Below are positions 8,315-30,940 of a DNA stretch of 42,429 bases, one piece after another. Source of the stretch: Clostridia bacterium (GTDB lineage Bacteria > Bacillota > Clostridia > Christensenellales > Aristaeellaceae); contig JAKSQH010000010.1 of NCBI GenBank assembly GCA_024404245.1, positions 1 to 42,429 on the forward strand, given 5' to 3'. The position numbers and the translations under genes were made by a program. The notes beneath the pieces are model-generated. The model saw only the letters and a list, made by a program, of their open reading frames with translations. It was not told where the DNA came from and made no database searches. Each line of letters opens with the position of its first letter. Position 1 is the stretch's first letter.

Positions 8315-8358
8315 TTTTCTGCACCTTCCTCACTCTGTACTGCGTCCCGAACGGGATC

Positions 8359-9727: not shown

Positions 9728-9736
9728 AGGCAACAA

Positions 9737-10921: not shown

Positions 10922-10940
10922 TGTCCCATTCTCCCTTCAA

Positions 10941-11660: not shown

Positions 11661-11684
11661 GTTCGCTCGCTCCTTTCAGCATTA

Positions 11685-11726: not shown

Positions 11727-11756
11727 CATTTTGTTCACTGTCAGACGCGGACTCTG

Positions 11757-12377: not shown

Positions 12378-12385
12378 GCCGCACC

Positions 12386-13429
12386 TCACACAATCGTGAT
12401 CTTATCGGCGGATTCAACGATTTCACCGATCACATAGGCATCCTCGCCGTTCGCTTTCAGAATCTCAAGCGCCTTGTCCGCCTCGTCCGCGGGAACAACA
12501 ACGCTCATGCCGACACCCATGTTGTAAGTGTTGAACATATCGCGCTCGCTGATATTACCCGTTTTCTGAATCAGCCCGAAGATCGGCGGGGTCTTTACGG
12601 AATCCTTGCGGATCCGCGCGCCGAGCCCGTCCGGAATGCTCCGCGGGATATTCTCGTAGAATCCGCCGCCGGTGATATGGCTGATGCCGCGCACCGCGAC
12701 CTGCTCCAGCAGGGCCAGCACGGGCTTCACATAGATCCGGGTCGGCGCCAGCAGCGCGTCGCCCAGGCTCCTGCCGCCCAGCTCCTCACGCGGGCTCTTC
12801 AGGTCGGCGTTCTCCACGTCAAACACCTTGCGCACAAGCGAGAAACCGTTGGAATGAACACCCGAGGACGGCAGCGCGATGATCACATCGCCGGCCTTCA
12901 TGGTCTTGTTGTCAATGATCTTTGCCTTGTCCACCACACCGGTGCAGTAACCGGCGAGGTCATATTCATCCTCCGGATAGAAACCGGGCATCTCGGCGGT
13001 CTCACCGCCGATCAGCGCCGCTCCGGACTGCACACAGCCGTCGCACACACCCTTCACGATATCCGCGATCCGCTCGGGCACGTTCTTTCCGCAGGCGATA
13101 TAGTCCAGGAAAAACAGGGGCTTCGCGCCGCAGCAGATGATATCGTTGACGCACATCGCCACGCAGTCAATACCCACCGTGTCATGGCGGTCCATCAGAA
13201 AAGCAATCTTCAGCTTGGTGCCGACGCCGTCCGTTCCGCTGACCAGCACAGGCTTCGTGATGCCCTCCAGATCAAGCTCAAACAGGCCGCCGAAGCCGCC
13301 CACATCGGAACAGACGCCGCTTGTCATCGTGCGGGCGATATGGGTCTTCATCAGCTCAACCGCCTTGTAGCCGGCAGTAATATCCACACCGGCCGCCGCG
13401 TAGGCTTCGGATCTCGAATTCGTGTTCAT
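12386..13429 (-). CDS. purM: Phosphoribosylformylglycinamidine cyclo-ligase (AIR synthetase)
   Basis: The 347-residue PurM converts FGAM and ATP to [21 protein letters not shown] is the typical N-terminus, followed by [50 protein letters not shown] and [15 protein letters not shown]. Length is normal. Its ATG lies 4 nt after the purF stop codon and AAAGGAA precedes it, so translational coupling with purF is likely. Position follows the classical purFMN order. Confidence 0.97.
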
Positions 13430-13433
13430 GCGC

Positions 13434-14852
13434 TCATTCCTTTCCGTTCCAGCAATAGGTGCACAGATTGCAGGGATCGATACCGATGGCCTTGATCACC
13501 CCTTCAAGGCTCTGGAAATCCAGTGACGCGAAGTGGAATTTCTCACAGATCGCTTCACGCAGCTTTTTGCCGCGCTCCGTGTTCCCGTCGCTGTATTCCT
13601 CCAGATGATCAAACCCTTCCGGACCTTCCAGCTCCATAATCACGCGCCGGGCGATCAGCTCCATGTCATCCGTGGCGCGTGAGAAATTCAAGTATTTGCA
13701 GCCGTACATGATCGGCGGACAGGCGGAGCGCATATGCACCGACTTCGCGCCGTTTTCATACAGGAACTCAACCGTTTCGCGCAGCTGTGTGCCGCGGACA
13801 ATGGAATCATCCACAAACAGAAGATCTTTTCCGCGGATCAGCTCATTCACCGGTATCTGCTTCATCTTGGCGATCTTGTTCCGGTCCGCCTGGTTGGCCG
13901 GCATAAAGGAGCGGGCCCAGGTCGGCGTATACTTGATGAACGCCCTGGCAAAAGGCCTGCCGCTGCGGTTCGCGTAGCCGATGGCGTGCGGCGTTCCGGA
14001 GTCCGGCACACCGCCCACATAGTCAATGTGCTCCGGCTTCATCGCGTCATTCTCCGCCAGAATCGCGCCGTTGCGGTAGCGCATCGCTTCCACGTTCACA
14101 CCCTCGTAGGTGGAGGTGGGATAGCCGTAATAGCTCCACAGGAAGGCGCATACCTTTTTCTTTTCGCCGGGCGCGTTCAGCCGCTTCATGCCGTCCGGCC
14201 GAAGCTCAACGATCTCGCCGGGGCCGAGCTCGCACACATCCTCATAGCCCGTTTTCTGATAGGCGAAGGATTCAAAGGAGACCGCGTACCCGTCCTCATT
14301 TCTGCCGATCTGCACCGGCAGGCGGCCGACCCGGTCACGCGCGGCGATAATCGCGCCGTCATCCTTCAGAATCAGGATGGACGCGGTACCCTCGATGGAC
14401 TTCTGCGCGAAGCGGATGCCCTCGGTAAAGTCGCTCTTCTGGTTGATCAGCGCCGCCAGCAGTTCCGTGGCGTTGATCGCGCCGCCCGTCATCGCGTCAA
14501 AATGACCGCCGCTGAAGGAAAGATATCTGTCAATCAGCTCATCGGCGTTGTTGATCACACCGGTCATGCACACCGCGTAGGTGCCGAGGCTTGAACGGAT
14601 CAGCAGGGGCTGGGGATCACTGTCTGAAATGCAGCCGATCGCCGAGGTGCCCTTCATCTCCTCAAAGATGTGCTCAAACTTGGTCCGGAACGGCGCGTTC
14701 TCGATATTGTGGATCTTGCGCTGCAGACCGATCTCACGGTCCCACGCCGCCATTCCGCCCCGGCGGGTGCCGAGGTGACTGTGGTAGTCAACGCCGAAGA
14801 ACACATCCAGCATACAGTCCTTCTTCGACGCGATCCCGAAAAAACCGCCCAT
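13434..14852 (-). CDS. purF: Amidophosphoribosyltransferase homologue lacking the N-terminal Cys
   Basis: The 472-residue protein has the PurF layout, a class II glutaminase domain (about 1-225) and a phosphoribosyltransferase domain. The PRPP loop is [19 protein letters not shown]. Four Cys that match the Fe-S ligands of Bacillus PurF are visible (KKVCAF, MYGCKY and CNLC near the C-terminus). The N-terminus reads [13 protein letters not shown], so Gly stands where the catalytic Cys2 of MCGIxG should be. [10 protein letters not shown] and other glutaminase segments remain. Either ammonia is used directly, or a partner supplies it, or the role has shifted. AGAGGG lies 7 nt before the ATG, and no better upstream start exists. 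Confidence 0.88.
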
Positions 14853-14886
14853 GGTGAACCCTCTTTCGTGTTGTTGTATTACCGGA

Positions 14887-15573
14887 TCAGGCGAAGAACA
14901 GCTTCGAAAGAGTCATGGGATCGATATACTGTCCGTCCTTGTAAACGCGCATGTTGCCGGAAGCGATCTCGTCAATCAGCATCACGCCGCCGTCCCTGTC
15001 ATAGCCGAACTCGAACTTGATGTCATACAGCACCAGGCCCTTCTCAGCCAGGTCATCCGCCACAATCTTTGTGATCTGCTGGGTCATGGCCTTGATATCG
15101 TCATACTGCCGCGCGCTCATCACGCCCAGATCAATCAGACCGTCCTTCGTGACCAGCGGATCGCCCTTGGCGTCATTCTTGAAGGTCATTTCAACATAGG
15201 CGGGCAGATCAGCGCCTTCTTCAATGTAATCGCTGTAGCGGCGGTAGAAGCTGCCGACGGCCTTATAGCGGCAGATCACTTCCAGACCCTTTCCGAAGGG
15301 CTTCGCGGGGAGAACTTCCATGGTGGTGGTGCCCAGATCGGCGTTCACATAGTGGGTGCGGATGCCGGCGGCGTTGATCTTCTCAAAGAAGTAAATGCTC
15401 ATGCGCAGGTTGACATCGCCGACGCCGTCAATGGTCAGGCCCACGGAGTTCTCGCCGGGATCGAACACGCCGTCCTTGCCGGTGCAGTCATCCTTGAAGA
15501 GCAGTTCGTAATTGCCGTTGTCAAGCGCGTAGACATTCTTGGTCTTACCGGTGTAAACAAGCTTCTTTTCCAT
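14887..15573 (-). CDS. purC: SAICAR synthetase
   Basis: The 228-residue enzyme joins CAIR to aspartate with [18 protein letters not shown] starts the ATP-binding region, followed by [24 protein letters not shown], the catalytic [10 protein letters not shown] and [16 protein letters not shown] with PMTLSKLFF at the end. Length is slightly short of 235, normal for bacteria. AAGGAG lies 9 nt before the ATG. It is second in the operon, between purE and purF. Confidence 0.97.
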
Positions 15574-15610
15574 GATCTTTCTCTCCTTGTCGTTTATTTC
15601 AGTTCAGGGT

Positions 15611-16099
15611 TCACAGTCTTGACAGGATGTCGCGGTCCTTTTCCAGCACCTTCGCGGCATCCTCCGCGCGCTTCGCGTCCAGCTTCGCGGCGAGGTCAGC
15701 GTCCTCCACCGCGAGAATCTGCACAGAAAGCAAAGCGGCATTGGCGCCTCCGTTCACGGCTACAGTCGCAACGGGAATTCCCGTCGGCATCTGTACCGTG
15801 GATAATAATGCGTCAATGCCGTCCATACATGCACCCATACAGGGGATCCCGATAACCGGGAGCGTAGTGTTCGCCGCGATCGCGCCGGCCAGATGGGCCG
15901 CCATGCCGGCCGCGGCGATGATCGCGCCGAAGCCGTTCGCGCGGGCGTTTATCGCGAAGTCACGCGCCTCGGCAGGCGTGCGGTGCGCCGAATAAACGTG
16001 TACCTCAAACGGCACACCGAATGACTTCAGCATATCCGTCGCCTTTTTCACCACGGGCAGATCGCTGTCACTGCCCATGACAATGCCAACCTTTTTCAT
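15611..16099 (-). CDS. purE: PurE, N5-CAIR mutase or AIR carboxylase
   Basis: The 162-residue PurE has the signatures IVMGSDSDLPVVKKA, VYSAHRTPAEA and PVATVAVNGGANAALLSVQILA. It makes CAIR for PurC. The active-site segment reads MAAHLAGAIAANTTLPVIG where classical class I enzymes have AAHLPG. No purK is present in the window, so whether the substrate is N5-CAIR or AIR plus CO2 is open. It is the first gene of the operon, about 29 nt after the predicted transcription start, with GAAGGA close to the ATG. Confidence 0.95.
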   Translation of the reverse strand: MKKVGIVMGSDSDLPVVKKATDMLKSFGVPFEVHVYSAHRTPAEARDFAINARANGFGAIIAAAGMAAHLAGAIAANTTLPVIGIPCMGACMDGIDALLSTVQMPTGIPVATVAVNGGANAALLSVQILAVEDADLAAKLDAKRAEDAAKVLEKDRDILSRL

Positions 16100-17738: not shown

Positions 17739-18650
17739 CTACCAGTCAACGGAACCGGTAATCAAATCAATTTCCGGAAGCAGTTTCCGTTTTGTAACAG
17801 CGACGTTTCCCCTCAGCACCTGTTCCGGGAAGACCCGCCCGTCCGCCGGCGAGAGGCCCTGGCGAAGAACGGCGAAAGCCATGATTCCCTTCCGCACGGA
17901 CTTTTGCTTTTCCGGCGAAAAACCGGAAAAATAAAGGGAGAAAACATCGTCCCACAGCCTGAGCATAATACGCGGGTCAACCGCGAAGAACCGTTCGGCA
18001 TAGGAAGGATTCACAGAAGGAATAATGAAGTGGGTGTTGGCGATCATGGCGAAGTCAAAAACAGGATGGCCGGTGCAGGTGTCCCCGAGGTCCACAAAGC
18101 AGAGTTCCCCGTTTCTCACAAGAATGTTCTTCGGATGATAGTCTCCGTGCAGGAGCGTATCCCTGTCCGGAACGGAGCGGACAAGCCGCTCCATTTTCTT
18201 CAGTTCCTCCGGCGTGTACCATGAGGTTCCGGAAAGCGCTTCGATCTTTGCCAGATAAGTGTCCGCGGCGGAGACGAAATCTCCTGAGCCGGCCTTCGTT
18301 TCATGAAAGCGTCTGAGTTCCCGGATATATTCGGGAAGAACGCGGTCATAGCAGTCTTCCTGTCCGGAAAGCAGCTCCGCCAGACTGCTTCCGTTCACAA
18401 ACTCACTGCGGATACCGATCCGGTCACCGTTCCTTACCATACCGAAAGGCTCCGGTACCCGGATACCGAGCCGCCGGGCGCTTTCCGCCGTGCGGCTTTC
18501 CCGCCGGATCTCGTCAAAAGAGTACTCCGGATTAAAAATCTTGCATACGGTGCCGTCCGGCAGCAGATATACGGTTGATGTGGCGCCGTAGCCGATTTTC
18601 GGGCATCCGTCCGTAACAACGGAAGGAAGGGAATCAATGTCTGTGTGCAT
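17739..18650 (-). CDS. Aminoglycoside-phosphotransferase-like small-molecule kinase
   Basis: The 303-residue protein has a protein-kinase-like fold of the APH group. A glycine-rich IGYGATSTVYLL loop and the Lys of GTVCKIF lie at the N-terminus. The catalytic LLHGDYHPKNILV loop (Asp and Asn) is followed by the metal-binding CFVDLGDTCTGHPVFDFA. It resembles the family first noted as a Fibrobacter paralogue group of putative phosphotransferases; no substrate is known. ATG at 18650 is chosen because AAGGAG lies 8 nt upstream. It overlaps the end of the STAS-ligase gene by 17 nt, so the two are co-translated. A longer frame upstream lies inside that gene and is not used. Confidence 0.85.
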   Translation of the reverse strand: MHTDIDSLPSVVTDGCPKIGYGATSTVYLLPDGTVCKIFNPEYSFDEIRRESRTAESARRLGIRVPEPFGMVRNGDRIGIRSEFVNGSSLAELLSGQEDCYDRVLPEYIRELRRFHETKAGSGDFVSAADTYLAKIEALSGTSWYTPEELKKMERLVRSVPDRDTLLHGDYHPKNILVRNGELCFVDLGDTCTGHPVFDFAMIANTHFIIPSVNPSYAERFFAVDPRIMLRLWDDVFSLYFSGFSPEKQKSVRKGIMAFAVLRQGLSPADGRVFPEQVLRGNVAVTKRKLLPEIDLITGSVDW

Positions 18651-20514
18651 CCGCGGCTCTCCTTTCCGCTTCCGCCGCGATCGCGAGCGAATCCTGTTTT
18701 CCGTTGGAAAGAACGGGGAATTCATCGAAAATGAAGAAATAAGACGGAATCTTAAACGCGGCGATCTTCCCGGAAAGGATTGACTTTGCCGCCTTTTCGT
18801 CAAACTCCGCTCCGGGCTTCAGCACGATGCAGGCGGCAACCTCCTCGCCGTAGAAATCGCTGGGCACCCCGACCACCTTGACATCCGAAATGCCCGGGAG
18901 CGCGCTTACGGCCTGCGCCACATCCAGCGGCATGATGTTCTCGCCGCCGCGGATGATAAGCTCCTTGAGCCTGCCGTCCAGATGAAGATACCCGTCCTCC
19001 CTCAGGAAACCGAGATCGCCCGTATGGAGCCAGCCGTCCGTGTCGATTGACTGACTGTCCAGATCCGCCTTGTAATAGCCGGCCATCAGGTTGTAGCCCT
19101 GAACAAGAATCTCACCGGTCTCGCCGGGAGCGCATTCGTGCCCGTCGGAAACGGAAACGATCTTCATTTCGATATGCTCCATGGGCTTTCCGACGGTATC
19201 GGTGATATGCTCGCCGGTGTCTTCATACTCAGTGATGGTAACAGGCGCCGCCTCGCTCAGCCCGTAGGAGGACAGGAAACGGTTATCGGGAAGCTTTTCC
19301 CGGAAAAGATCGAGCTGCGCTTTGGTGGCGGCGGCACCGGAAAGAATGGTGCACCGCAGGGACGCGATCCTTTCCGGACGGAATTCCGGATTCGTAAGGA
19401 GGGCAAGGAACAGGGTGGGCACCGCGTGGAACACGGTGCACCGGTTCTTCTCAATGGTTTCCATCAGCGTGGACATATGCAGGTCCTTCGGCAGAACCAG
19501 AAGGGCATCTGCAAAGGCTCCGGCAAAAAGCCCGGCGACAAGCCCGAAAACGTGGAAAAGCGGAAGGATGTTGCAGGAGACGGAATCCCCGGTAAGGTTC
19601 TGGCTTCTTTTGCTGATTTCAGCGGCGTTCAGCACATTGTAAGCGGACAGGATAACCCCTTTCGGCTTCCCTGTGGAACCGGAGGTGAACAGCATGAGGC
19701 AGGGGTCATCGGGCTCCACTGTACCGGCAAAGGATTCCAACGGGCACGCAGCGCCTTCCGCCACCCATTGCCCCGCCGGCAAATCCTCAAAGAAGAACAG
19801 GTCTTCAAGCCCGGCGGCACCGGAACGGATCTCATGGAAAAAAGCATCCCTGTCCGGCCTGTAAGGAAGATTGCCGACGCACATGAAAGCGACGTCGCCC
19901 GCGGTGATGTGCGTAATGATCTCGGATGGTTTCAGGTTGAAGTTCATGAGCACGGCAAGGGCTCCGAGTTTCTGAACGGCATAGAGGCACAAAATGAAAT
20001 TCACGGAGTTCAGCCCGGCAATTCCGACATGGCTGCCTTTGCGCACACCCATCCGCCGCAGACGGTGTGCCATCGCGTCGGAACCGAGGTCAATATCCGT
20101 CCAGGTCCAGTCTTTTTCGGAATCGCGCAGAACGGCTCTGTCCCCGCAGGAGGCAGCCTTTTCCCTGATAAAATCCCGTATCGACAGGTGGACGAAATCC
20201 GCGCGATTGCCCTGCTCAACAGGGAGGATCGTATCAAACCCGCTGATTCTGAAAATATCCATGACGCTGTCACTGACGGACACAATCTTCATCCGGTCAT
20301 CCCGGAAGCGTTTCCGCGCGATCAGCAGCTCGCGCAGTCCGGCGGAGGAAATATAAAGGGTGTTTCCGAGATCTATGACAAGCAGCGCGGTGTCATCGGG
20401 AACTGTGCCGAGCACCCTGCGCAGCTCCGGCGCGGTGTTGGTATCCAGGCGGCCGTCAACGGTTACCTTTACGCCGTTATTCGTATTTTCTGAAAAAATC
20501 ACGGTTATGTCCAT
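18634..20514 (-). CDS. STAS domain-acyl-AMP ligase fusion protein
   Basis: The protein has 626 residues. Residues 1-105 form a STAS domain like SpoIIAA/RsbV. It has the pattern VDGRLDTNTAPELR, and YISSAGLRELL holds the serine pair (56-57) that is phosphorylated in anti-sigma antagonists. The rest is an adenylate-forming ligase: FTSGSTGKPKGVIL near 276, SSYGLSEAAPVTI, HTGDLGFLREDGYL, GRLKELIIRGGENI and the C-terminal Lys of LSNGKQDS. No carrier domain is present. The start at 20514 is chosen because the promoter -10 covers the upstream ATG at 20553, although the nearby AAAGG is unusually close to the codon. It heads the left arm of the divergent cluster. Confidence 0.88.
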   Translation of the reverse strand: MDITVIFSENTNNGVKVTVDGRLDTNTAPELRRVLGTVPDDTALLVIDLGNTLYISSAGLRELLIARKRFRDDRMKIVSVSDSVMDIFRISGFDTILPVEQGNRADFVHLSIRDFIREKAASCGDRAVLRDSEKDWTWTDIDLGSDAMAHRLRRMGVRKGSHVGIAGLNSVNFILCLYAVQKLGALAVLMNFNLKPSEIITHITAGDVAFMCVGNLPYRPDRDAFFHEIRSGAAGLEDLFFFEDLPAGQWVAEGAACPLESFAGTVEPDDPCLMLFTSGSTGKPKGVILSAYNVLNAAEISKRSQNLTGDSVSCNILPLFHVFGLVAGLFAGAFADALLVLPKDLHMSTLMETIEKNRCTVFHAVPTLFLALLTNPEFRPERIASLRCTILSGAAATKAQLDLFREKLPDNRFLSSYGLSEAAPVTITEYEDTGEHITDTVGKPMEHIEMKIVSVSDGHECAPGETGEILVQGYNLMAGYYKADLDSQSIDTDGWLHTGDLGFLREDGYLHLDGRLKELIIRGGENIMPLDVAQAVSALPGISDVKVVGVPSDFYGEEVAACIVLKPGAEFDEKAAKSILSGKIAAFKIPSYFFIFDEFPVLSNGKQDSLAIAAEAERRAADAHRH

Positions 20515-20551
20515 CCTTTCAGAAGATAATTGTGTATCTGATGATGGGATC

Positions 20552-20580
20552 ATTATATCAGAGCGGACGAAAATAATGAA
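20552..20580 (-). promoter_or_regulatory. Promoter of the STAS-ligase operon
   Basis: On the minus strand a consensus extended -10, TGATATAAT (TATAAT at 20557-20552), lies 17 nt downstream of a weak -35 TTCATT. Transcription would begin near 20545, about 31 nt before the chosen ATG at 20514. This rules out the in-frame ATG at 20553 as start. Confidence 0.7.
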
Positions 20581-20627
20581 GGATTATGTTTGATGATCAT
20601 TTCAATATTCCATAAAGCGTGGCAATA

Positions 20628-20636
20628 TGATATATT
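20628..20636 (+). promoter_or_regulatory. Possible extended -10 promoter of the NRPS-NAT operon
   Basis: TGATATATT (TATATT at 20631-20636) matches an extended -10 and mirrors the TGATATAAT of the divergent promoter. No convincing -35 is seen at 16-18 nt. If used, it gives a leader of about 140 nt that includes the tandem AGGTGTC repeats. Confidence 0.4.
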
Positions 20637-20656
20637 TCAGATGATGCCCGGCGCAA

Positions 20657-20717
20657 GGGGGTAGAAGGGGTAGAAGGTGTCAGGTGTCAGGTGTCAGGTG
20701 TAAAAGTATAAAGGTGT
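20657..20717. repeat. Tandem short repeats in the NRPS operon leader
   Basis: AGGTGTC occurs three times in perfect tandem and once as AGGTGTA (20675-20702), preceded by two GGGGTAGAAG units and followed by another AGGTGTA. The true ribosome binding site of the first NRPS gene, AGGTGTAAAAAAG before 20783, has the same AGGTGTA word. Such heptamer tracts can change copy number by slippage. Confidence 0.75.
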
Positions 20718-20782
20718 AGGGGGATCGGCCTGGCTTTGCGGGCGTCCGTGAATCTGTACAAAAAAGAACAGGTGTAAAAAAG

Positions 20783-23680
20783 ATGAGATCATACTTTGTG
20801 GATAAACTGGAACAGAACGCTGAAAAATATCCCGAACGTACAGCCGTCACGCTGGACTTCGGGGAAGCGCCGGTCACCTATTCCGAGCTCTGGAACCGGT
20901 CCGGCAGAATATACGGAGCATTAAAGGCGCGCGGAATCGGGCGGGAGGATACCGTTATGCTTTTCCTTCCCCGGCATCCGATGATGATTGTCGCGCTTCT
21001 GGGGGTGCTCCGCGCGGGGGCCGCGGTGACGCTTGCGGAAGACACCTGCCCCGAAGAGCGTCTCGCGTATATGAAAGCGGACTGCGGTGTCCGGTTCGTG
21101 ATTGACCGGGACTTCTATGAAAAGGCGCAGGAGGGACCTTCCCTTTCCGGAAGAGAACCGCTTTATCCGCATGACGCGGGTATGATCTTTTACACCTCCG
21201 GCACCACAGGAAAACCGAAGGGGATCCTGCATGAGTACGGCAAGATCGACATCGGCATCGCCGGAACGGTAACGGATGAGGACGCGGTGGATTTTGACCG
21301 CTGTGACAGATTCGCTTTCGTGCCGCCCTTCAACTTTTCCGCCGTGATGATCCACGGTCTGCCGGAGCTCTACACGGCGAACACACTTTATATCCTGTCC
21401 TATCATGTGTCCAAAAACTTCAAACGCCTCCGTGAGCTTCTGGAAAAGGAAAGAATCACCGGGCTGTTTCTTTCCCCGTCCGTGCTCAGGGTCTACAACG
21501 AAGGCTTTCCGTATGTCCGATCGATCATGACAGGGTCGGAACCGGCCTCCCGTCTGTGTATCCCGGGGCATGAGATCACCGTTCATTACGCCATGACGGA
21601 ATCACTGTACTGCGTTTCCAAATACGTGCTGACACAGGAGAGCACGGACGCGCCGATCGCAACCCGGGATACGGGGAGGAACATCCGCATTCTCGGCGAG
21701 GACGGAACCCCCGTAAAGGACGGGGAAACCGGTGAGATCTGCTTCCCGGACCCCTATTTCCGCGGCTATATCAACATGCCGGAAAAAACGCGCGAAGTAT
21801 TCCGCGACGGACTCTTCCACTCCGGCGATCTCGGATACCGGAGTGAAAACGAAGATATCTTTATCAAGGGGCGCGCGGACGATATGATCAAGATCAACGG
21901 GAACCGGATTGAGCCGGGCGAAATCGAAGCCGCGGCAAGAGAGGTTTCCGGCATCGGAAATGTGGTGGCAAAAGGCTTCGTCAGCGACCGGCGTTCCTAT
22001 GTGGCGCTTTACTACCCGGCAAAAGAGGCGGATGAAACCTGCCTGTTCCGGGATGCCGCGCTGGCAAGGCGCAGGCTTTCGGAAAAGCTGCCTTCCTATA
22101 TGATTCCGTCATATTTCGTACCCATTGAAACCATGCCGCTGAACGCGAACGGAAAGCTGTCCAGAAGCCTGCTGCCGGAACCGGCCGCGGCAACGGAAAC
22201 CGGCGAACCCCGGAGAAAGCCGGCCGACGAAACGGAGGCTCTGCTGTGCCGCGTGATGGCGTCCGTCCTGCCCGGCGCGGAACCGGGCCCGGACGATGAT
22301 TTCTATGAAGCCGGAGGCGATTCTATTTCAGCGATCCGGATGGTCACCGCCTGCTCCGCCGAGGGCTGCGACATCACGGTGGAGGATCTCCTTGAGGCAA
22401 GAACGGCGGCCGCGCTCGCGCGCAGAATATCCGGCAGAAGAACGGCGACACGGGAAGAGACGGCCCTGAGGGAAGACCGGGCAAGAAGAAAGCCGCAGCG
22501 TTTGCTTGCCGGCCAGCGGATCTACTGGCAACTGTTTGAAAAATACCCGGACCATCCGTCCGTCTGCGTACCGGTGTTCGCCATACTGAAAAACGATACT
22601 GACCCTGAACGCTTGAAAAACGCGGTGAATAGGGTCATCGCCCGCCATCCCGCGCTCCTTTCAGGTTTCCGGCGTGAAAAGGACGGAAGTGTGGTACAAT
22701 ATTATGATGAAACGCTGTTTCAACCGGTTACCGTGGAAGAGATGTCCGCCGCGGAGCTGGCGCGCGAGCGCGTAAGCTTTTTCAAACCGGTGAACCTTCT
22801 GAAGGACAGGCTCTACAGCGCGAGAATCATCCGCACACCGGAGAAAAACGTGTTTCTGCTTTCCGTGCACCATATCATGGGAGACGGTGCCTCAAACAGC
22901 ATGCTGCTGCACCAGATCGCCGCGTGCTACCGGGATCCGGAAGCCGTGCTCCCGCCCGACCTTTATTATTCACTGTGTGAAGAGGAGGCGGCCGAATCCG
23001 GCCCCGCGGAAAAAGCCGGTCCGAACCCGGCGGAACGCCTTCCGGAAAAGAGTGCCGCGATGCTGCGCCCGGATCTTCCGGGCCCGGATTCCGGAAGTGA
23101 AACACTCTTCCTTCAAGGCGTGCTTCCCAGATCCCCGAAAGCATCCGCCGCGGTGTTCCTCACCGCGGGCCTCACGGCGACGGCGGAAATCAACGGCTGT
23201 GACAGCGCGCTCATTTACGCGACCTATAACGGCAGGAACAGGCAGGCCAGAAAGGACGCCGCGGGCTGTTTCACAGTCCTGCTTCCCGTGGCGGTAACGA
23301 AGATCCGTGAAAAGAAGGCGGAAGAGCTGATTTCCGAAGTGCGGAAACAGCTGGATCACGGCATGCTGCACGCTGCCGGTTCCCCGGTCACGGAGAGCGG
23401 ACTGCCGCTTGACCGGACAGTGGTTTTCAACTATCAGTACGGAACGATGGACTTCGGGGATTTCAGTAACCTCGCGGAATCCGTTTTCATGCCGCGGCGC
23501 GACCCGAACAGTCCCAACTGCCTTTTCAACATCGGCGTGCTTGACCGCGCGGATGCCGAACGGCTGGATTTCTACTGCAACTACCCGCGGGGAATGTATC
23601 TGCCGGAAACAGTCCGGCGCTTCGGCGAGTGTTTCGTAAAAGCGGCCGGTCTGCTTACAGCGGAAAACCCGGAAGACTGA
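20783..23680 (+). CDS. NRPS module protein 1, order A-PCP-C
   Basis: This 965-residue single-module synthetase has three domains. The adenylation domain (about 1-465) has YTSGTTGKPKG at 137-147, FNFS at 183-186, HSGDLGY near 346, GRADDMIKINGNRIEPGEIE and the catalytic Lys458 of LNANGKLSR. The carrier domain (about 480-550) has FYEAGGDSISAIRM with phosphopantetheine Ser514. The condensation domain (about 572-960) has the catalytic HHIMGDG at 696-702. Where amino-acid-specific A domains have FDxS, Asn184 replaces the Asp that binds the substrate amino group. No thioesterase or reductase is present. AGGTG precedes the ATG. The start of the right arm, it is followed 21 nt later by a paralogue. 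Confidence 0.93.
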   Translation: MRSYFVDKLEQNAEKYPERTAVTLDFGEAPVTYSELWNRSGRIYGALKARGIGREDTVMLFLPRHPMMIVALLGVLRAGAAVTLAEDTCPEERLAYMKADCGVRFVIDRDFYEKAQEGPSLSGREPLYPHDAGMIFYTSGTTGKPKGILHEYGKIDIGIAGTVTDEDAVDFDRCDRFAFVPPFNFSAVMIHGLPELYTANTLYILSYHVSKNFKRLRELLEKERITGLFLSPSVLRVYNEGFPYVRSIMTGSEPASRLCIPGHEITVHYAMTESLYCVSKYVLTQESTDAPIATRDTGRNIRILGEDGTPVKDGETGEICFPDPYFRGYINMPEKTREVFRDGLFHSGDLGYRSENEDIFIKGRADDMIKINGNRIEPGEIEAAAREVSGIGNVVAKGFVSDRRSYVALYYPAKEADETCLFRDAALARRRLSEKLPSYMIPSYFVPIETMPLNANGKLSRSLLPEPAAATETGEPRRKPADETEALLCRVMASVLPGAEPGPDDDFYEAGGDSISAIRMVTACSAEGCDITVEDLLEARTAAALARRISGRRTATREETALREDRARRKPQRLLAGQRIYWQLFEKYPDHPSVCVPVFAILKNDTDPERLKNAVNRVIARHPALLSGFRREKDGSVVQYYDETLFQPVTVEEMSAAELARERVSFFKPVNLLKDRLYSARIIRTPEKNVFLLSVHHIMGDGASNSMLLHQIAACYRDPEAVLPPDLYYSLCEEEAAESGPAEKAGPNPAERLPEKSAAMLRPDLPGPDSGSETLFLQGVLPRSPKASAAVFLTAGLTATAEINGCDSALIYATYNGRNRQARKDAAGCFTVLLPVAVTKIREKKAEELISEVRKQLDHGMLHAAGSPVTESGLPLDRTVVFNYQYGTMDFGDFSNLAESVFMPRRDPNSPNCLFNIGVLDRADAERLDFYCNYPRGMYLPETVRRFGECFVKAAGLLTAENPED

Positions 23681-23701
23681 AAAAAGACACGGAGGAAACA
23701 G

Positions 23702-26608
23702 ATGGACACATATTTTGTTGAAAAGATGAGGCGAAACGCCGAAAAATACCCGGACCGGCTGGCGCTCGCGCTTGACTTTCATGAGGAGCCGGTTACCTGC
23801 GCGGAGCTGTGGGACCGTTCCGGCAGGATTTATGCCGCCCTCAGGGAGAAAGGGCTCGGCCGGGAGGACTTCATTATGCTGCTCCTTCCGAGAAGTCCCC
23901 GGATGTTCATCGCCATGCTCGGCGTGCTTCGCGCCGGAGCCGCCTTCGTTTTCATGGAGGATACCTATCCGGAGGACAGGGTCCGGGCGATCCGTGAAGA
24001 CCTGAATATCCGGCTTGTACTGGACCTTTCCGTGTATGAGGCGGCCATGGCGCTTCCGTCCCTTTCCGGATACGAAAGCACCGACCCGCATGACGCGTGC
24101 TTCTCCTTCAGCACCTCCGGCACCACCGGCAAACCGAAAACCATGATTCATGAATACGGCAAGCTGGATGTATGTCTGGACAGCTGGTACGCGGATGTCC
24201 CGGATCTGCACGAGGAAAGCCCGCGGAACTTCGCCATGATCTTCCCTTTCAACTTCGCCGCGGCCTTTGTTCTGCCGCTGCCGAAGCTGTACGCGGCGGA
24301 CCCGGTCTTCATCATGTCCTACGATACGGTGAAGAACCTCGTCCGGTTTGAGGAATTCCTCACGGCGGAGAATATCGGGGAGATCTATCTCTCCCCCTCC
24401 TTCCTGCGCACATACAAAGGAAGCTATCACAATATCCGGAAAATCATCGCCGCCGGGGAACCCGCCACAGGCGTTTACAAAGAGGGCATTGACATCCATG
24501 CCTACTACGGCATGAGCGAAACCTGCTTCATGGTCTCCTCGTTCCTTCTTGACAAAGCCCATGACCGGGCGATCGTCGGCAAAAACAACTTCGGTCTCAG
24601 GCTTCTGATACTGGATGAAAACGGAAACAGTGTTCAGCAGGGGGAAACCGGAGAGGTATGCTTTGATAATCCTTATTTCCGCGGCTATCTGAACCTTCCG
24701 GAGCTGAATGAGGAAGTGCGGGGTTACGGAATCTTCCATTCCAGGGACCTGGGATATATTGATGAAAACGGAAACCTTGTGATCCGCGGCCGGCTGGATG
24801 ACATGGTGAAGATCAACGGGAACCGTGTAGAGCCGCTGGAAATCGAACTGACGGTCAGAAAAACGCTGGGCATCGAGCACCCGGTGGCGAAAAGCTTTAC
24901 CGCGGAAGGCCGCACCTTCATTGTGCTCTACTGTCTGAAGAGTGAAAAAACACCTGTGCTGGATGACCCGGCGGAAGTGAGACGGATCCTTTCAAAGTGC
25001 CTTCCCGGCTACATGATCCCCACCTACTATATCGCGCTCGACGCGTTCCCGCTCAACGCCAACGGCAAGCTCTCACGGAAAATGCTTCCGGCGCCGGATA
25101 TCCGGGAATACCGCAATGCCTACGTGAAGCCGGAAAACGAAGCGGAGGAAATGTTCTGTAACGCCATGGCGGAAGTGCTCGGCCTTGAAAAGGTCGGAGC
25201 GGATGAGGACTTCTTCCTGATCGGCGGTGACTCACTTACCGCGATCCGCATGATCACCGCCTGTGCCGAGGCGGGCTGCTTCATCACCGTGAACGGGCTT
25301 TATGAATGCCGCACGGCCGGAAACCTTGCCGCGCGGTTCGGGCAGGAAAAGGCAGGAACCCCGGAGGAGCTGCGCCGTGAAAACGAGAACGCGGAAAAAG
25401 AGCCGGCGGATCTCACCGCGGGCCAGCTGTTCCAGCTGGAGATGGCGCTGAATCAGAAAAAGCCGCGCGTTATCACCTATCACGCGGCAATGATTTTCAC
25501 CCTGCAGCCCGGGGTGGACACGGAGCGGCTCCGCGCCGCAGCGGAAAAAGCGCTCAGGAACCATCCGGCGTTCCTTTCCGGGTTCCGGAAGGACGCATCC
25601 GGCAAAGTGTGCCAGTATTATGACGAAAGCCTGTTCACGCCGGTCGGCACCGTTACGATGACGGATGAAGCGTTCGCCGCGGCAAAGCCGGCCCTCGTCA
25701 CGCCGATGGACCCGCTTTCCGGAAGCCTTTACCGCTGCAGCATCATCGTGACGCCGTCACATAACTACTTCTTCTGCGATTTCCATCACCTGATCGCGGA
25801 TGAGATGTCCCTGTCCGTCTTTGTGCGCGAAGTGGCGGACCGCTATCTCGACAGCGGCGCGGAACTGCCGGCGGACCGTCTCTATCTGATTCTCCGGGAT
25901 GAAAAACAGGCCCGTAACGAAGAAACCGCGCGGGCAACCCGCGAACATCTGGCGGCAGTGCGGAAAAAAGAGCACTTCAGCGGAAGAGGCATCCTGAAGC
26001 AGGATCTTCCCGGACCGGAAACAGGCACCGGCGTATTCTATGTGCCTGACGCGTTTCAGAGATCCGACGGCTATTCCGCCCGTCTGTTCCTCACAGCCTG
26101 CGCCATGTCCGTAGCGGAGATGAACGGGGAGGATGCCGCGATGGTCTATTCAAACTATCACGGCAGAGACACTTTCCTGAAGAATGATTCCGTCAACTGC
26201 TATGTCACGCCCGTCCCGGTTATTCTTAACAGCAGGGACGGAAGAAGCCCCGCGGAAATGCTGAATGATGTACGGGAACAGTCCGATTACGGCGCGGCGC
26301 ACTGCAGCTTCCCGTTCATACTGGAAAACAGCGACGTACTGGGAAACACCGTGATGTTCAACTATCGCAACGGCACAATGAACATCGGCCGCTTTTCCGC
26401 GCTCTGCAGCGACGTCTACCTCTGCCCCAAGCCGGCAGGCCAGCCCAACTGCCTTGTGATCGCGGGCATCGTCGGCCGGCACGGCTCCGATGAACTGGGA
26501 TTCTACTGCACTTATCCCGAAGGGCTGTATTCAAAAAACAGGATCCGTGAATTCTACGAATGCTTTGTGAGCGCTGTGAAAAAGCTCACAGGAAAGGACC
26601 GCGTATGA
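23702..26608 (+). CDS. NRPS module protein 2, order A-PCP-C
   Basis: The 968-residue paralogue of protein 1 has the same layout and clearly arose by tandem duplication. Its A domain has STSGTTGKPKT at 137-147, FNFA at 183-186 (again Asn184), and Lys456 in LNANGKLSR. The carrier has FFLIGGDSLTAIRM with Ser511. The condensation motif reads HHLIADE at 695-701, so the usual Gly after the Asp is Glu, and the A-domain TGD-type turn reads HSRDLGY with Arg for Gly. It may be active with altered kinetics, or its C domain may be partly degenerate. GGAGG precedes the ATG. Its stop overlaps the next start as ATGA. Confidence 0.92.
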   Translation: MDTYFVEKMRRNAEKYPDRLALALDFHEEPVTCAELWDRSGRIYAALREKGLGREDFIMLLLPRSPRMFIAMLGVLRAGAAFVFMEDTYPEDRVRAIREDLNIRLVLDLSVYEAAMALPSLSGYESTDPHDACFSFSTSGTTGKPKTMIHEYGKLDVCLDSWYADVPDLHEESPRNFAMIFPFNFAAAFVLPLPKLYAADPVFIMSYDTVKNLVRFEEFLTAENIGEIYLSPSFLRTYKGSYHNIRKIIAAGEPATGVYKEGIDIHAYYGMSETCFMVSSFLLDKAHDRAIVGKNNFGLRLLILDENGNSVQQGETGEVCFDNPYFRGYLNLPELNEEVRGYGIFHSRDLGYIDENGNLVIRGRLDDMVKINGNRVEPLEIELTVRKTLGIEHPVAKSFTAEGRTFIVLYCLKSEKTPVLDDPAEVRRILSKCLPGYMIPTYYIALDAFPLNANGKLSRKMLPAPDIREYRNAYVKPENEAEEMFCNAMAEVLGLEKVGADEDFFLIGGDSLTAIRMITACAEAGCFITVNGLYECRTAGNLAARFGQEKAGTPEELRRENENAEKEPADLTAGQLFQLEMALNQKKPRVITYHAAMIFTLQPGVDTERLRAAAEKALRNHPAFLSGFRKDASGKVCQYYDESLFTPVGTVTMTDEAFAAAKPALVTPMDPLSGSLYRCSIIVTPSHNYFFCDFHHLIADEMSLSVFVREVADRYLDSGAELPADRLYLILRDEKQARNEETARATREHLAAVRKKEHFSGRGILKQDLPGPETGTGVFYVPDAFQRSDGYSARLFLTACAMSVAEMNGEDAAMVYSNYHGRDTFLKNDSVNCYVTPVPVILNSRDGRSPAEMLNDVREQSDYGAAHCSFPFILENSDVLGNTVMFNYRNGTMNIGRFSALCSDVYLCPKPAGQPNCLVIAGIVGRHGSDELGFYCTYPEGLYSKNRIREFYECFVSAVKKLTGKDRV

Positions 26609-28569
26609 AGGGATACTTTGACCGGCTGACAGAGGCGAAGGAAAAATACGGCGACATCGCGGTGGCCTGCGACGGGGATGAAACGGTTTGCTATTCCGGC
26701 CTGCTCTCCGCCGCCATCGGCTACAGAAGCATCCTTGCCGGAATGGGTGTGAAACCCGGAGACAAGGTCACCTTATGCGCCTACAACTCCTGCGCGTGGC
26801 TCAGGGCCTTCTTCGGCATCACCTGTTACGGCGCCGTGGCGGTACTGATGAATTACTCGCTGCCGGAGAATGAGATCAGAACCCTGATGCAGCAGATGGA
26901 CTCCTCCGTTTTCCTTTACGGTAACTTCGGCGGGCTGGAAAAGGACGCGTCCTGCGCGGAACGCATTCAGCCGGATGCCGGAAAGCGGGCGGATATCCGA
27001 ACGTTCTCCTTTGATGAGAAGGAGACATTTGCCCCCGTTACCGCTGCGGAATCCGCGTGCGCGGACCCGGCCTTCGTCGTATTCACCTCCGGCTCAACAG
27101 GCTCCCCGAAGGGCGGGATGCTGTCCCAGAGAAGCAACATCACGGGCGCGGACGCCTATACGGAGGCAATACCCGAAATGAAGGAGGAAAGCCTCTGCAT
27201 GGCGGTGCCGCTGTTCCACATCTTCGGGCTGGGCATTGCCATGGCACATCTCCTGTACGGCGGAAAGCTCCTCCTTCCGGAAAAGTTCTCCTCCGGCATG
27301 ATCAACCGTTTCCTGCGGGAATACACGCCGGACGCGCTCACCGCGGTGATGACGGTCATCGTGCGCGCCATGGAGGACGAGGCGTTCCCCGATGCCGGCT
27401 ACCCGTTCATCAAAAGGATTTACGCGGGCGGGGCGCCGCTGCTTCCCATCCAGCTTATGCGGGTGGAAAAAGGCTTCGGCAACGCCGTGCTGCTGAACAG
27501 CTACGGGCAGACGGAATCCGATACCTGCATCGCGATGACCCGCCCGTCAGACAGCGCGGATGTCAGGGTGCACACCGTCGGCAGACCGTTTCCCCACAGG
27601 GAGGTTGTCATCATGAATCCCGAAGGGGCGGAATGCCCCCGCGGGGAAATCGGAGAGGTCACACTGCGGGATAACGGATTCATCATGCTCGGATACTACG
27701 GCGCCGCCGCGGAAGTGCAGGCGATTGACGCGTCCGGCTTCCTCCACACCGGAGACATCGGTTTCCTGGATGATAACGGTTTCCTGCACCTCGCCGGCAG
27801 AATCAAGGATATCATCATCAAAGGCGGCGAGAACATCATCCCGGCCGAAATCGAAGCCGTGATCAATTCACTGCCCGGCGTACGGGAGGTAAAAGTCTTC
27901 GGCGCGCCGGATGAGCTTTACGGGGAAAACATCCACGCCTGCCTCACCCTCACCCCGGGTACGGAACCGGACGGGGACGCCATCCGCAAGGCACTGACGG
28001 GAAAGATACCGCGTTTCCGGATGCCTGTGAACTTCTTCATTTTTGACGCGTTCCCGCTGAAGGCAAACGGGAAGCTGGACGCCTGCGCGCTTCTGGCAAT
28101 GATGCTGAGACGGCTTGACGCCAGGAAAATCGATGAGGATATCGTGAACGGCATCAAAGTGTTCGCCTTCGAAACCATGCGGCGGCGGAACATTATCGAT
28201 CAGGCGGTGAAAACCGTACCCGCCATCCTGTCCAACCTGGGCTTCAGCGCGGGCAAGATCCGCAGGATCCAGCTCTGCGTGGAGGAACTGCTGGCCGAGC
28301 GGACCGAAGCCGGCTATATCGGCAGCGGAAGCCTGCGCGTCGAGTGCAGACTCTTCCGTGAGTTTGTCCGTCTCGGATACAGTGACGACAACCCGGAGCC
28401 TCCCTTCGCCCGCGTCGGTGAAAGCCCGGAAAAAGCGGCCGGCGCGAAAATCGTGACAAGGCTTGCCGACCGCATCGGCACCGCGGTAACAGACAGCGGC
28501 CGCTGTGAATATAACCTGGATTTCCTTTACGATCTGGAATTCGATGTTGAGGAAAACTACCTGCTATGA
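26605..28569 (+). CDS. Acyl-AMP ligase with C-terminal anti-sigma-kinase-like domain
   Basis: The protein has 654 residues. Residues 1-500 form an adenylate-forming ligase with FTSGSTGSPKGGML near 160, NSYGQTESDTC, HTGDIGFLDDNGFL, GRIKDIIIKGGENI and Lys in LKANGKLDA near 490. Residues 511-640 resemble the GHKL ATPase fold of SpoIIAB/RsbW. A helix leads to IRRIQLCVEELLAER, where the N-box of those kinases lies, and GAKIVTRLADRIGTAV resembles their last helix. The N-box Asn and the DxGxG loop are not conserved (YSDDNPEP instead), so kinase activity is doubtful. Start 26605 overlaps the previous stop as ATGA, with AAAGGA upstream. It is the counterpart of the STAS-ligase across the promoter. Confidence 0.85.
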   Translation: MKGYFDRLTEAKEKYGDIAVACDGDETVCYSGLLSAAIGYRSILAGMGVKPGDKVTLCAYNSCAWLRAFFGITCYGAVAVLMNYSLPENEIRTLMQQMDSSVFLYGNFGGLEKDASCAERIQPDAGKRADIRTFSFDEKETFAPVTAAESACADPAFVVFTSGSTGSPKGGMLSQRSNITGADAYTEAIPEMKEESLCMAVPLFHIFGLGIAMAHLLYGGKLLLPEKFSSGMINRFLREYTPDALTAVMTVIVRAMEDEAFPDAGYPFIKRIYAGGAPLLPIQLMRVEKGFGNAVLLNSYGQTESDTCIAMTRPSDSADVRVHTVGRPFPHREVVIMNPEGAECPRGEIGEVTLRDNGFIMLGYYGAAAEVQAIDASGFLHTGDIGFLDDNGFLHLAGRIKDIIIKGGENIIPAEIEAVINSLPGVREVKVFGAPDELYGENIHACLTLTPGTEPDGDAIRKALTGKIPRFRMPVNFFIFDAFPLKANGKLDACALLAMMLRRLDARKIDEDIVNGIKVFAFETMRRRNIIDQAVKTVPAILSNLGFSAGKIRRIQLCVEELLAERTEAGYIGSGSLRVECRLFREFVRLGYSDDNPEPPFARVGESPEKAAGAKIVTRLADRIGTAVTDSGRCEYNLDFLYDLEFDVEENYLL

Positions 28570-29339
28570 ACGGACATGAACTGATACGGATGTATTTTGA
28601 CCGCCTCGCGATGAAGGTGCCGGACAGGCTCCTCCCGGACGCGGAAACGCTCGCGGCGCTTCACCGGCGGCATGTGCTGCTGATTCCCTATGAGAACACG
28701 GATTACCTGACGGGGCATATTCTGCCGACCGGTTTTGAAACGCAGTTCCATGAGGTGATCATCCGGAAAAGAGGAGGAATGTGCATTGATATGAATCCCC
28801 TTTTCGGCGCGCTGCTGACCGCCATAGGCTACCGGGTGCGATACTTTTCCACGGTGATCTGCGGGAGACGGGCGGAAGACCTGAACTATCACGTGATCCT
28901 GCTTGCTGAGGACCGCGAAGGGGAAACCCGGTGGTGCGATGTCGCCAATCCCTTCACAAGGTTCTTTGACCCTCTTCCCGTCACGGAGAGAACGGAGCTG
29001 ACCGCCTCCGGCAGCAGCTTCCGGTTCGGAAGGGATCCGGCCGGGAAACTGCTGCTGCAGGAAAAGAAAGCCGGGATATGGACGGACTTTCTGCGGATCC
29101 GGGACGCGGACATCACCGAGGAGGACAGGAATGATTCCAAGTTCAGCGCGATGACGGAATATCCGGAAAACGCGGTGTGCCGCAAGGAGGTTTTCTCCCT
29201 TGTGACGCCCGAAGGCCGCCGCACGCTGACCGGAAACCTCTACCGCGAATCAACGGGAAACGGGCTTTATCAGTATGAATGCCCGGATACACTTATGCCA
29301 TGGGCATATGCCCAATTCGGACTGCAAAGCCGAAAATGA
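28566..29339 (+). CDS. Arylamine N-acetyltransferase family protein 1
   Basis: The 257-residue NAT-family protein has a complete Cys-His-Asp triad, with Cys73 in KRGGMCIDMN, His109 in LNYHVILL and Asp125 in WCDVANPF. LIPYENTDYL near 39 is another NAT hallmark. NATs move an acyl group from a thioester to an amine, and relatives such as RifF close amide bonds in natural products. Its ATG overlaps the ligase stop as ATGA. As no thioesterase exists in the cluster, it may release a carrier-bound acyl chain as an amide; this is inference. Confidence 0.88.
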   Translation: MNGHELIRMYFDRLAMKVPDRLLPDAETLAALHRRHVLLIPYENTDYLTGHILPTGFETQFHEVIIRKRGGMCIDMNPLFGALLTAIGYRVRYFSTVICGRRAEDLNYHVILLAEDREGETRWCDVANPFTRFFDPLPVTERTELTASGSSFRFGRDPAGKLLLQEKKAGIWTDFLRIRDADITEEDRNDSKFSAMTEYPENAVCRKEVFSLVTPEGRRTLTGNLYRESTGNGLYQYECPDTLMPWAYAQFGLQSRK

Positions 29340-29349
29340 GGACGGAAAA

Positions 29350-30123
29350 ATGGATGAAGCAAGAGTAAAGCAGTATTTTGAACGCATCGGACTGACAATG
29401 CCGGAAAGCATCACGCCGGATGCCGCGCTGCTGGAAAAGCTCACATTTCACAACATCATCAGCATTCCCTATGAAAACACGCAGTTTCTGACGAAAAAAT
29501 GCGTCTCCTGCAATACGGATGACCTTTTTCAGCGAATCGTGAAAGAGAAAAAAGGCGGAATCTGTCATGATATCGCGGGGCTGTTCGGCTGGTTTCTGAC
29601 TGAGCTGGGCTACGAAGTCATGCCTGTGGGAACCGTATCCTTTTATGAAAAGCTGCGTTCACACATCCATAAAACGCTGATCGTAACGGATCGCGACGGA
29701 ACTCGCTGGCTGACGGAAACAACCTTTTCCACCTTCATGAACTGCAAGAAACCGATCCGCTTCGTACCCGGAATGAAACAGCTGCTGGACGGCGAGGAAT
29801 TCCTCATTGAGGAAAGAGACGGAAAAATGTGCCTGATCGGTCCATCCGAAAGCGCGTCCTTCCGGATGGAATATCCCGGAATCTCGCCGGAAATCGGTAC
29901 AAAAATCAAGGAATACACAATCGCGGGACACGATCCCGCCGGAAAGATCAAAAGAATGATCTCCATCGGCACACCGGAAGGACGCCGGACGCTGTTCGGC
30001 AACTCCTACCGGGAGTATTTCAAGGACAGTATATATTGCTATGACTGCCCGCCGGAGCAGCTTCCCTGGGCATACGCGCAGTTCGGCCTGCCGTATGAGG
30101 AACCCTGTGACGCGGCGGACTGA
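29350..30123 (+). CDS. Arylamine N-acetyltransferase family protein 2
   Basis: The 257-residue paralogue starts at 29350, where GAGG lies just upstream and 10 nt after the previous stop. ISIPYENTQFL, the nucleophile Cys72 in KKGGICHDIAG and His107 in SHIHKTLIV are present. The third triad position reads WLTETTF, so Glu123 stands where Asp is expected. It is closest to the next gene (both share QYFERIGLTMPE-like or RYFERIGLTMPE-like starts). The C-terminal LPWAYAQFGLP also occurs in NAT 1. Activity may be altered. Confidence 0.86.
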   Translation: MDEARVKQYFERIGLTMPESITPDAALLEKLTFHNIISIPYENTQFLTKKCVSCNTDDLFQRIVKEKKGGICHDIAGLFGWFLTELGYEVMPVGTVSFYEKLRSHIHKTLIVTDRDGTRWLTETTFSTFMNCKKPIRFVPGMKQLLDGEEFLIEERDGKMCLIGPSESASFRMEYPGISPEIGTKIKEYTIAGHDPAGKIKRMISIGTPEGRRTLFGNSYREYFKDSIYCYDCPPEQLPWAYAQFGLPYEEPCDAAD

Positions 30124-30151
30124 CAGACATTCGCGCAAAACGGAGGCCGCA

Positions 30152-30940
30152 ATGGATCAGAAACACCTGGAACGGTATTTTGAACGGATCGGACTGACAA
30201 TGCCGGAAAACATCGCCGCGGACGGGGAACTTCTTGAAAAGATCTTCCGCGCGCAGGTCACACATATCCCCTATGAGAATATCGATTATCTGAATCTGAG
30301 AAAAGAACCGGTCACACCGGAGGGACTCTACCGTCAGATTGTGGAAAACGGCCGCGGCGGCGTATGCTATGACCTGAACGCGCTCCTCGCGGATGTGCTT
30401 TGCAGCCTCGGATATGAAGCATATCCCGTGATGGCGGATCACTACCGCACGCATATGGAAAACACGGAATACCGCCATTCCGGGCTGATCGTGAAGGACA
30501 GCGCCGGCAACAGGTGGCTTTCGGACGCGGGAGATTCCTTCTCCGGTTCGCTGAAGCCGCTGCGGCTTCAGGACGGGGTTGTACAGTATCCCGGAAACGA
30601 GGCGTATCAGCTCCGGAAAAGAGAGGACGGCAGCTGGATGCTCTTTGTGCAGCTGAAAGGTGAATGGGTCGCCAACTATGCCTTCCGTGAGGAACCGGCA
30701 TCGCTTGAAACGCTGACATACTTCAAGCTTGTGGCCATGAATCCGGAGATCCCCTTCACGCATGAGGAGCTGTTCCACATCCGCACGGAAAACGGGTACC
30801 GGATTCTGCGCGGCAGGACCTACTGCGAAAAGAACGGCGCGGCGAAAACCGCGCGTACGGTGGAGGACGGCGAACTGGAGGCCGTGTACGCGTCATTCGG
30901 GCTGAAGCATCCCTATACCGTATACGCGCGGAACCCGTAA
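30152..30940 (+). CDS. Arylamine N-acetyltransferase family protein 3
   Basis: The 262-residue paralogue has Cys72 in GRGGVCYDLNA, His109 in EYRHSGLIV and Asp125 in WLSDAGDSF, so its triad is complete. HIPYENIDYL near 38 matches the family. GGAGG lies 6 nt before the ATG, 28 nt after NAT 2. It is the last gene of the right arm. The three NATs share a duplicated origin yet are well diverged, which suggests different acyl or amine partners. Confidence 0.87.
   Translation: MDQKHLERYFERIGLTMPENIAADGELLEKIFRAQVTHIPYENIDYLNLRKEPVTPEGLYRQIVENGRGGVCYDLNALLADVLCSLGYEAYPVMADHYRTHMENTEYRHSGLIVKDSAGNRWLSDAGDSFSGSLKPLRLQDGVVQYPGNEAYQLRKREDGSWMLFVQLKGEWVANYAFREEPASLETLTYFKLVAMNPEIPFTHEELFHIRTENGYRILRGRTYCEKNGAAKTARTVEDGELEAVYASFGLKHPYTVYARNP

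Follow-up and report, generated by a model that had tools for sequence, protein, structure and literature searches.

Why should two acyl ligases of one gene cluster carry the two complementary halves of a partner switch? The question is raised by a divergent cluster in the genome of a Clostridia bacterium, lying within a stretch of 42,429 nucleotides of contig JAKSQH010000010.1 that is called the window here. One AMP-forming acyl ligase encoded in the window has a STAS domain at its N-terminus (STAS-ligase), and another, in the opposite arm, has a HATPase domain at its C-terminus (ligase-HATPase); these domains are referred to as tags. An earlier reading of the DNA, the original prediction, supposed that the tags either dock the ligases into one complex or link ligase activity to regulation. 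According to the analysis given below, the tagged ligases are probably outputs of a partner-switching circuit, and their direct docking is plausible.

Domains and ancestry of the two tagged ligases

The N-terminal domain of the STAS-ligase matches PF01740 (E = 3.5e-9, 36.8 bits, above the cut-off of 22.6). The ligase part consists of AMP-binding (residues 130–494) and AMP-binding_C (545–619) Pfam domains and contains the motifs FTSGSTGKPKG, YGLSE and NGKQD. Solved relatives of the STAS domain include SpoIIAA (1th8, E = 5.1e-6) and RsbV (6m36_B, E = 8.5e-5). Ser70 corresponds in the alignment to a SpoIIAA position occupied by Ser in 1th8 and by Ala in 1tid, the latter presumably being a phospho-site mutant. 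A serine occupies this place in all six STAS-ligases, which bears out the phosphorylatable-type SSAGL motif predicted for one of the ligases. The two serines of the motif are Ser69 and Ser70 when counted from the ATG at 20553; the numbers 56 and 57 assigned to them earlier count from Met14.

The ligase-HATPase comprises AMP-binding (11–365) and AMP-binding_C (415–490) domains. When the whole protein is scanned, its C-terminal domain has no Pfam match at E 0.1; scanned alone, the domain matches PF13581 with an E-value of 0.0094 and 16.4 bits, under the cut-off of 27.4. PF13581 matched each of five scanned relatives with E-values from 2e-5 to 1.1e-3, none of them reaching the cut-off, and in a genome search the tag of genome G128 barely exceeded the cut-off, with 27.5 bits. 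For a profile of eight tag copies, the best solved match is RsbW (6m36, E = 0.0027), the other two chains matched having E-values of 0.13 and 0.76. An hhalign comparison of 15 tag copies with 14 canonical PF13581-type HATPases from related genomes, including two tails of MATE fusions, gave a probability of 96.6 (E = 5.2e-10), versus 0.08 for a control with an alignment of condensation-like proteins. Since the window copy scores below the Pfam cut-off, the RsbW-like identity of this tag is drawn from its relatives. By these comparisons, the C-terminal domain appears GHKL-like and of the RsbW type, as had been predicted.

The Asn of the N-box is invariant in the 14 canonical HATPases and missing from all 60 ligase-HATPases with a readable N-box, where it is replaced by Glu (59) or Lys (1). 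The altered box has the pattern E-E-x-x-x-[EK]-R, with E-E and R kept in 60/60; in the window, Glu stands where Asn is expected. The alignment holds 61 distinct rows after the removal of seven duplicates, with L160 (79 amino acids) left out and L168 having no readable N-box (L, G and C numbers denote loci, genomes and contigs). The D-x-G of the first glycine box is kept in 60 of the 61 rows, the window copy being the sole exception, and its Asp in all 61; the second glycine box is unrecognisable in these tags. Both the N-box Asn and the DxGxG loop had been described as lost; loss of the Asn extends to the whole family, and loss of the loop is confined to the window copy. Because the N-box change is family-wide and D-x-G is kept outside the window, the tag is a conserved pseudo-HATPase and not a single decaying copy. 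With the Asn missing throughout the family, docking is predicted to be likelier than kinase activity, in agreement with the first reading.

The ligase domains of both proteins were placed in a tree of 54 sequences (six STAS-ligases, 13 ligase-HATPases, 28 chosen from among the best class matches and seven paralogs). The STAS-ligases form one clade (100/99) and the ligase-HATPases another (100/100); the two are united in a joint clade (100/99) apart from the 35 other ligases. A second tree with 26 ligase-HATPases and 19 paralogs concurs (joint clade 99/97), the window ligase-HATPase being a long branch in both. As judged from these trees, the tagged ligases form two sister lineages. By E-value, some untagged class ligases come closer to the STAS-ligase (1e-88) than the ligase-HATPase does (2e-78); the objection to sister lineages that this raises was rejected, as the tagged groups still joined when the tree was rebuilt with 28 of the class matches.

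The window cluster, its relatives and their surroundings

Table 1. Features of the divergent cluster (positions in the window)
Feature	Position	Strand	Description
STAS-ligase	18634..20553	-	639 amino acids; RsbV/SpoIIAA-like STAS at N-terminus, then AMP-forming acyl ligase
STAS domain of STAS-ligase	20215..20472	-	residues 28–113; Ser70 codon 20344–20346
Ligase-HATPase	26605..28569	+	654 amino acids; AMP-forming acyl ligase, C-terminal RsbW-like pseudo-HATPase
RsbW-like domain of ligase-HATPase	28135..28566	+	residues 511–654 (~144 residues); N-box VEELLAER
Non-ribosomal peptide synthetase (NRPS)-like adenylation–thiolation–condensation (A-T-C) protein, 965 amino acids	20783..23680	+	HHIMGDG; GGDSI carrier site
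NRPS-like A-T-C protein, 968 amino acids	23702..26608	+	HHLIADE, deviates from HHxxxDG
Arylamine N-acetyltransferase (NAT)-like protein 1	28566..29339	+	
NAT-like protein 2	29275..30123	+	
NAT-like protein 3	30041..30940	+	
APH-fold / TIGR02172-like kinase	17739..18803	-	immediately downstream of STAS-ligase; TTG-started open reading frame (ORF), ATG at 18650 likelier

The two NRPS-like genes (20783–26608) sit between the tagged ligases, which lie in divergent arms (Table 1). The ATG of the ligase-HATPase overlaps the stop codon of the upstream NRPS gene (ATGA), and the first NAT-like ORF begins on the final bases of the ligase-HATPase ORF; because of these overlaps, the NRPS/ligase-HATPase/NAT-like arm looks like one transcription unit. 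The three NAT-like genes stand in tandem after the NRPS arm. Arylamine N-acetyltransferase-like enzymes can serve as amide synthases (RifF). In an alignment to LgrA, read by eye, the adenylation domain of the 965-residue protein has Ser in place of an Asp that we take to bind the α-amino group. Because of this replacement, the substrate of this domain may not be an ordinary α-amino acid. Purine biosynthesis genes (4625–16099, minus strand) adjoin the cluster. A scan of 28 window ORFs found no sigma factor; no other sequence was searched for one.

The assembly of the own genome is 65% complete, in 86 contigs. Outside the window, on contigs C20 and C30, it encodes two SpoIIE-HATPase proteins whose N-box is intact, with a STAS gene after each of them; because of these two modules, a kinase and a phosphatase could act in trans on the window tags. 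On C20 (L236), a second NRPS-like gene (6723–12623, labelled by phmmer only) is convergent to the SpoIIE-HATPase and STAS module.

A scan of the sequence collection with the whole ligase-HATPase found no relative; the domain alignment then gave 61 loci with the tag. Ligase and tag form one ORF in 60 of them, the ORF of the remaining one (L160) being cut by the contig end. A private fusion or an assembly artefact was rejected as an explanation, as the fusion stands in one frame in these 60 loci, two of which are named strains, Oribacterium sp. KHPX15 (L135) and [Eubacterium] cellulosolvens LD2006 (L163). The loci belong to Clostridia (44), Coriobacteriia (14), Erysipelotrichia (1), Spirochaetia (1) and Bacillota without class (1); this cross-phylum spread suggests transfer, though bins can be wrong. 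Most record titles point to metagenome-assembled genomes (MAGs) from the ruminant gut: 24 mention a ruminant or the rumen, another 21 have RUG names (presumably rumen uncultured genomes) and 16 neither. In a family sample of 150 genomes, six match the window domain (own included) with seven matches, all in ligase frames; some of the 61 loci are the same records. In an order sample of 396 genomes there are also six, four with ligase fusions (own included), the other two matches being a STAS-APH-HATPase protein (G386) and a SpoIIE-HATPase protein (G189). STAS-ligases occur in five further genomes (G128, G149, G766, G830 and G807); their frequency is 2/396 in the order sample and 2/291 in a class sample, own genome included in both.

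A condensation-like protein is encoded on the same strand within 6 kb in 42 of the 61 ligase-HATPase loci, directly downstream in 37. Its best solved relatives are the NRPS condensation-domain proteins Txo2 (E = 7.6e-4) and Txo1 (E = 0.002); for PapA5, E is 0.37. SpoIIE genes are present in nine of the loci (seven on the same strand within 6 kb) versus an expectation of 0.94, derived from nine genomes with 33 such genes in 26.7 Mb; the p-value of 7e-7 is rough, as phmmer matches in loci are set against Pfam matches in genomes and the loci are related. STAS genes are present in 12 loci (eight near and on the same strand), a raw count without a background rate, and kinase-type HATPases in three, a label taken from one query sequence. 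In a Coriobacteriaceae locus (L159), genes for an HGSNAT-like protein, the ligase-HATPase, a HATPase (PF13581, 63.5 bits), STAS and SpoIIE follow each other on one strand with gaps of less than 40 bases. In L161 and L163, a free STAS gene stands directly after the ligase-HATPase and a STAS-APH protein is encoded further down. In [Eubacterium] cellulosolvens, a truncated STAS of 81 residues is encoded 1.15 kb upstream of the ligase-HATPase in the same cluster; among 70 STAS proteins compared, its four best matches after itself are STAS-ligases. The SpoIIE and HGSNAT-like genes also accompany STAS-ligases, in L047, L048 and L175, with SpoIIE in the gene run; L047 and L175 are nearly identical in sequence, so these three of the five other STAS-ligases amount to two independent SpoIIE cases. 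In the remaining STAS-ligase loci there are two condensation-like genes (L064) or a single one at a distance of 5.4 kb upstream (L176); the L176 contig, 15.7 kb long, contains no SpoIIE.

Tagged proteins other than ligases are encoded at some of these loci, STAS-tagged ones at ligase-HATPase loci L113, L148, L160, L161 and L163. A longer protein with a C-terminal STAS domain occurs in L113, L131, L147, L148, L149 and L160, on the opposite strand in L131, L147 and L149; the front part has a weak methyltransferase match in L160 and none in the other five. L115 encodes a comparable protein, which matches methyltransferases weakly. STAS-tailed proteins of about 420–430 residues are encoded at L051 8051–9319, L160 2942–4207 and L113 1606–2898; the front part of the first has a methyltransferase LCM match just above the cut-off.

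TIGR02172/APH-fold kinases stand behind STAS at L049 9493–10698, L051 9316–10509 and L060 6658–8283, the last being a STAS-APH-HATPase triple fusion, and in L161 and L163; the window kinase is of the same kind, but without STAS. An HD-domain and APH-fold kinase fusion (L143 2436–3914) adjoins a ligase-HATPase. MATE transporters with a C-terminal HATPase_c_2 domain are encoded at L087 1471–3228 (C67 of the own genome), L088 19–1860, L091 48–1790 and L089 1459–3330, this identity having been seen in all four long HATPase frames scanned. A fifth (L170 7419–9170) stands beside a ligase-HATPase. Locus L170, with an A-T-C NRPS, a GNAT protein, the ligase-HATPase and this transporter, has the layout nearest to that of the window.

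Proposed docking of the tagged ligases and its alternatives

Because free STAS, SpoIIE, kinase-type HATPase and other STAS-tagged proteins adjoin the fusions, the two tags are probably parts of a partner-switching circuit that has enzymes as its output. Sister ancestry, complementary tags and a common cluster make mutual binding the most direct reading, and docking of the two window ligases through their tags is plausible on these sequence grounds. An enzyme-linked partner switch, in which the STAS domain docks on the HATPase tag of the sister ligase, is preferred here, tentatively and with a probability put slightly below even. One ancestral acyl ligase would have given rise to two sister lineages, one acquiring an RsbV-like STAS domain and the other an RsbW-like HATPase domain that lost its kinase N-box. 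The STAS domain would serve as the switch; its unphosphorylated form would dock on the degenerate HATPase tag, gathering both ligases with the other proteins of their pathway: two NRPS-like and three NAT-like proteins in the window, condensation-fold or membrane acyltransferase-like proteins elsewhere. If Ser70 were phosphorylated, the STAS domain would undock, with the kinase and the SpoIIE phosphatase working in trans. The domains, the sister ancestry, the conserved serine, the loss of the N-box Asn throughout the family and the neighbouring genes are what is observed; binding of the tags, phosphorylation, its direction and any effect on activity are what we infer in this scheme. For BtrV, phosphorylation is reported to promote binding, according to the part of PMC8256260 available.

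Both fusions occur in the window genome, G128 and G807 (Oribacterium KHPX15), and G830 has a STAS-ligase together with a HATPase tag on a protein whose ligase part is cut off by a contig end; in the order sample, only the own genome has both. Several observations weigh against the docking of a dedicated pair. Of 50 ligase-HATPase genomes (the 52 loci first chosen less L168 and L169), 48 yielded no STAS-ligase at E 1e-20, nor did a further five, G112, G108, G016, G082 and G456; conversely, G149 and G766 have a STAS-ligase, and no ligase-HATPase was found in either. The two fusions do not co-occur significantly (p = 0.066 in the family sample when the own genome is excluded, 0.065 pooled), and among the stretches fetched both fusions share one cluster solely in the window. 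The stretches of 49 of the 61 loci have no STAS gene and those of 52 no SpoIIE, many contigs being short. The window tag is among the most divergent, with 24–32% identity to 14 others and D-x-G lost, and the STAS part of the L115 protein is seen by phmmer only and has no serine motif. Obligate pairing was rejected, as the fusions mostly occur apart, and so was co-occurrence as a proof of pairing. As for the original prediction, the regulatory link is supported by the neighbouring genes and an exclusive pair is not; a search for genomes holding both fusions did yield two besides the own one, but most ligase-HATPase genomes have one fusion without the other, an outcome that the prediction had itself named as speaking against it. 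A link to partner switching is accordingly better supported than exclusive docking of the two window ligases.

The same separation speaks for a possible, if somewhat doubtful, alternative, in which both tags are switch elements but each ligase answers to free partners of its own and the ligases do not bind each other: the STAS-ligase would answer to a HATPase kinase and SpoIIE, and the ligase-HATPase to a free STAS protein. Ligase-HATPases with a free STAS gene nearby (L159, L161, L163) and STAS-ligases with a neighbouring SpoIIE gene (L047, L048, L175) fit this arrangement; the sister ancestry of the ligases, their single divergent cluster in the window and the co-occurrence of STAS-ligase and HATPase tag in G128, G807 and G830 do not. 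It is unlikely that the tags are what is left of decayed regulatory genes and have no present function: the lost N-box Asn and the unrecognisable second glycine box would suit decay, but E-E and R of the altered N-box, the Asp of the first glycine box and the serine of the STAS-ligases are kept in every readable copy. Least probable is that STAS docks on a carrier domain and guides acyl-AMP to the NRPS carriers, the HATPase tag being merely structural; the cluster has two carrier domains, and the STAS domain of YchM is said to bind acyl carrier protein (a complex reportedly described by Babu in 2010), but other STAS-ligases have SpoIIE, HGSNAT-like or condensation-like genes around them, with no carrier domain in the subset of neighbours scanned, and the solved STAS relatives at E 0.01 are anti-sigma antagonist-type proteins.

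A wider reading extends beyond the two ligases. RsbV- and RsbW-like tags would in this case have spread over acyl ligases, methyltransferase-like proteins, APH-fold kinases and MATE transporters, forming in ruminant-gut bacteria a SpoIIE-controlled, phosphorylation-gated network that puts pathway complexes together or takes them apart directly, without a sigma factor as intermediary. We regard such a network as conceivable, at well under an even chance.

Comparison with known partner-switching systems

Partner switching is known mainly as a form of sigma-factor control, and for several non-canonical systems the target has yet to be identified. A narrow full-text literature search found no paper on such a pair of STAS- and HATPase-tagged ligases, which is weak evidence of absence. 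If the docking reading is true, sister enzymes with complementary switch halves would make the enzyme itself the output. They would allow direct control of metabolism by a SpoIIE/STAS/HATPase switch to be tested concretely, and would provide biosynthetic enzymes with a natural docking pair. Since Oribacterium sp. KHPX15 and [Eubacterium] cellulosolvens LD2006 carry the ligase-HATPase, tests do not depend on MAGs.

SypA and HmpV are likewise STAS switches with a kinase and a phosphatase, their direct target being unknown according to the available part of PMC8256260; they are described there as single-domain STAS proteins, with no tagged enzyme. Closer in architecture is the Anabaena glycosyltransferase all4160, an enzyme with an N-terminal STAS domain; the enzyme is a different one, and the same portion of PMC8256260 names no HATPase-tagged partner enzyme. 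In the MlaB–MlaF pair, the STAS protein binds a target other than a sigma factor and stabilises it, and the Ser/Thr at the phospho-site place of MlaB sits in the interface; the target is an ABC ATPase, there is no fusion, and phosphorylation in cells is not shown in the part of PMC7367683 at hand.

The RsbV–RsbW and SpoIIAA–SpoIIAB systems of Bacillus share with the window cluster both domain types and the phospho-site-type serine, and some relatives of the window fusions have a SpoIIE-type phosphatase and a kinase-type HATPase beside them. In contrast to these systems, the window ORFs scanned include no sigma factor (with the scope given above), the HATPase half has no N-box Asn, and the two domains are fused to sister acyl ligases.

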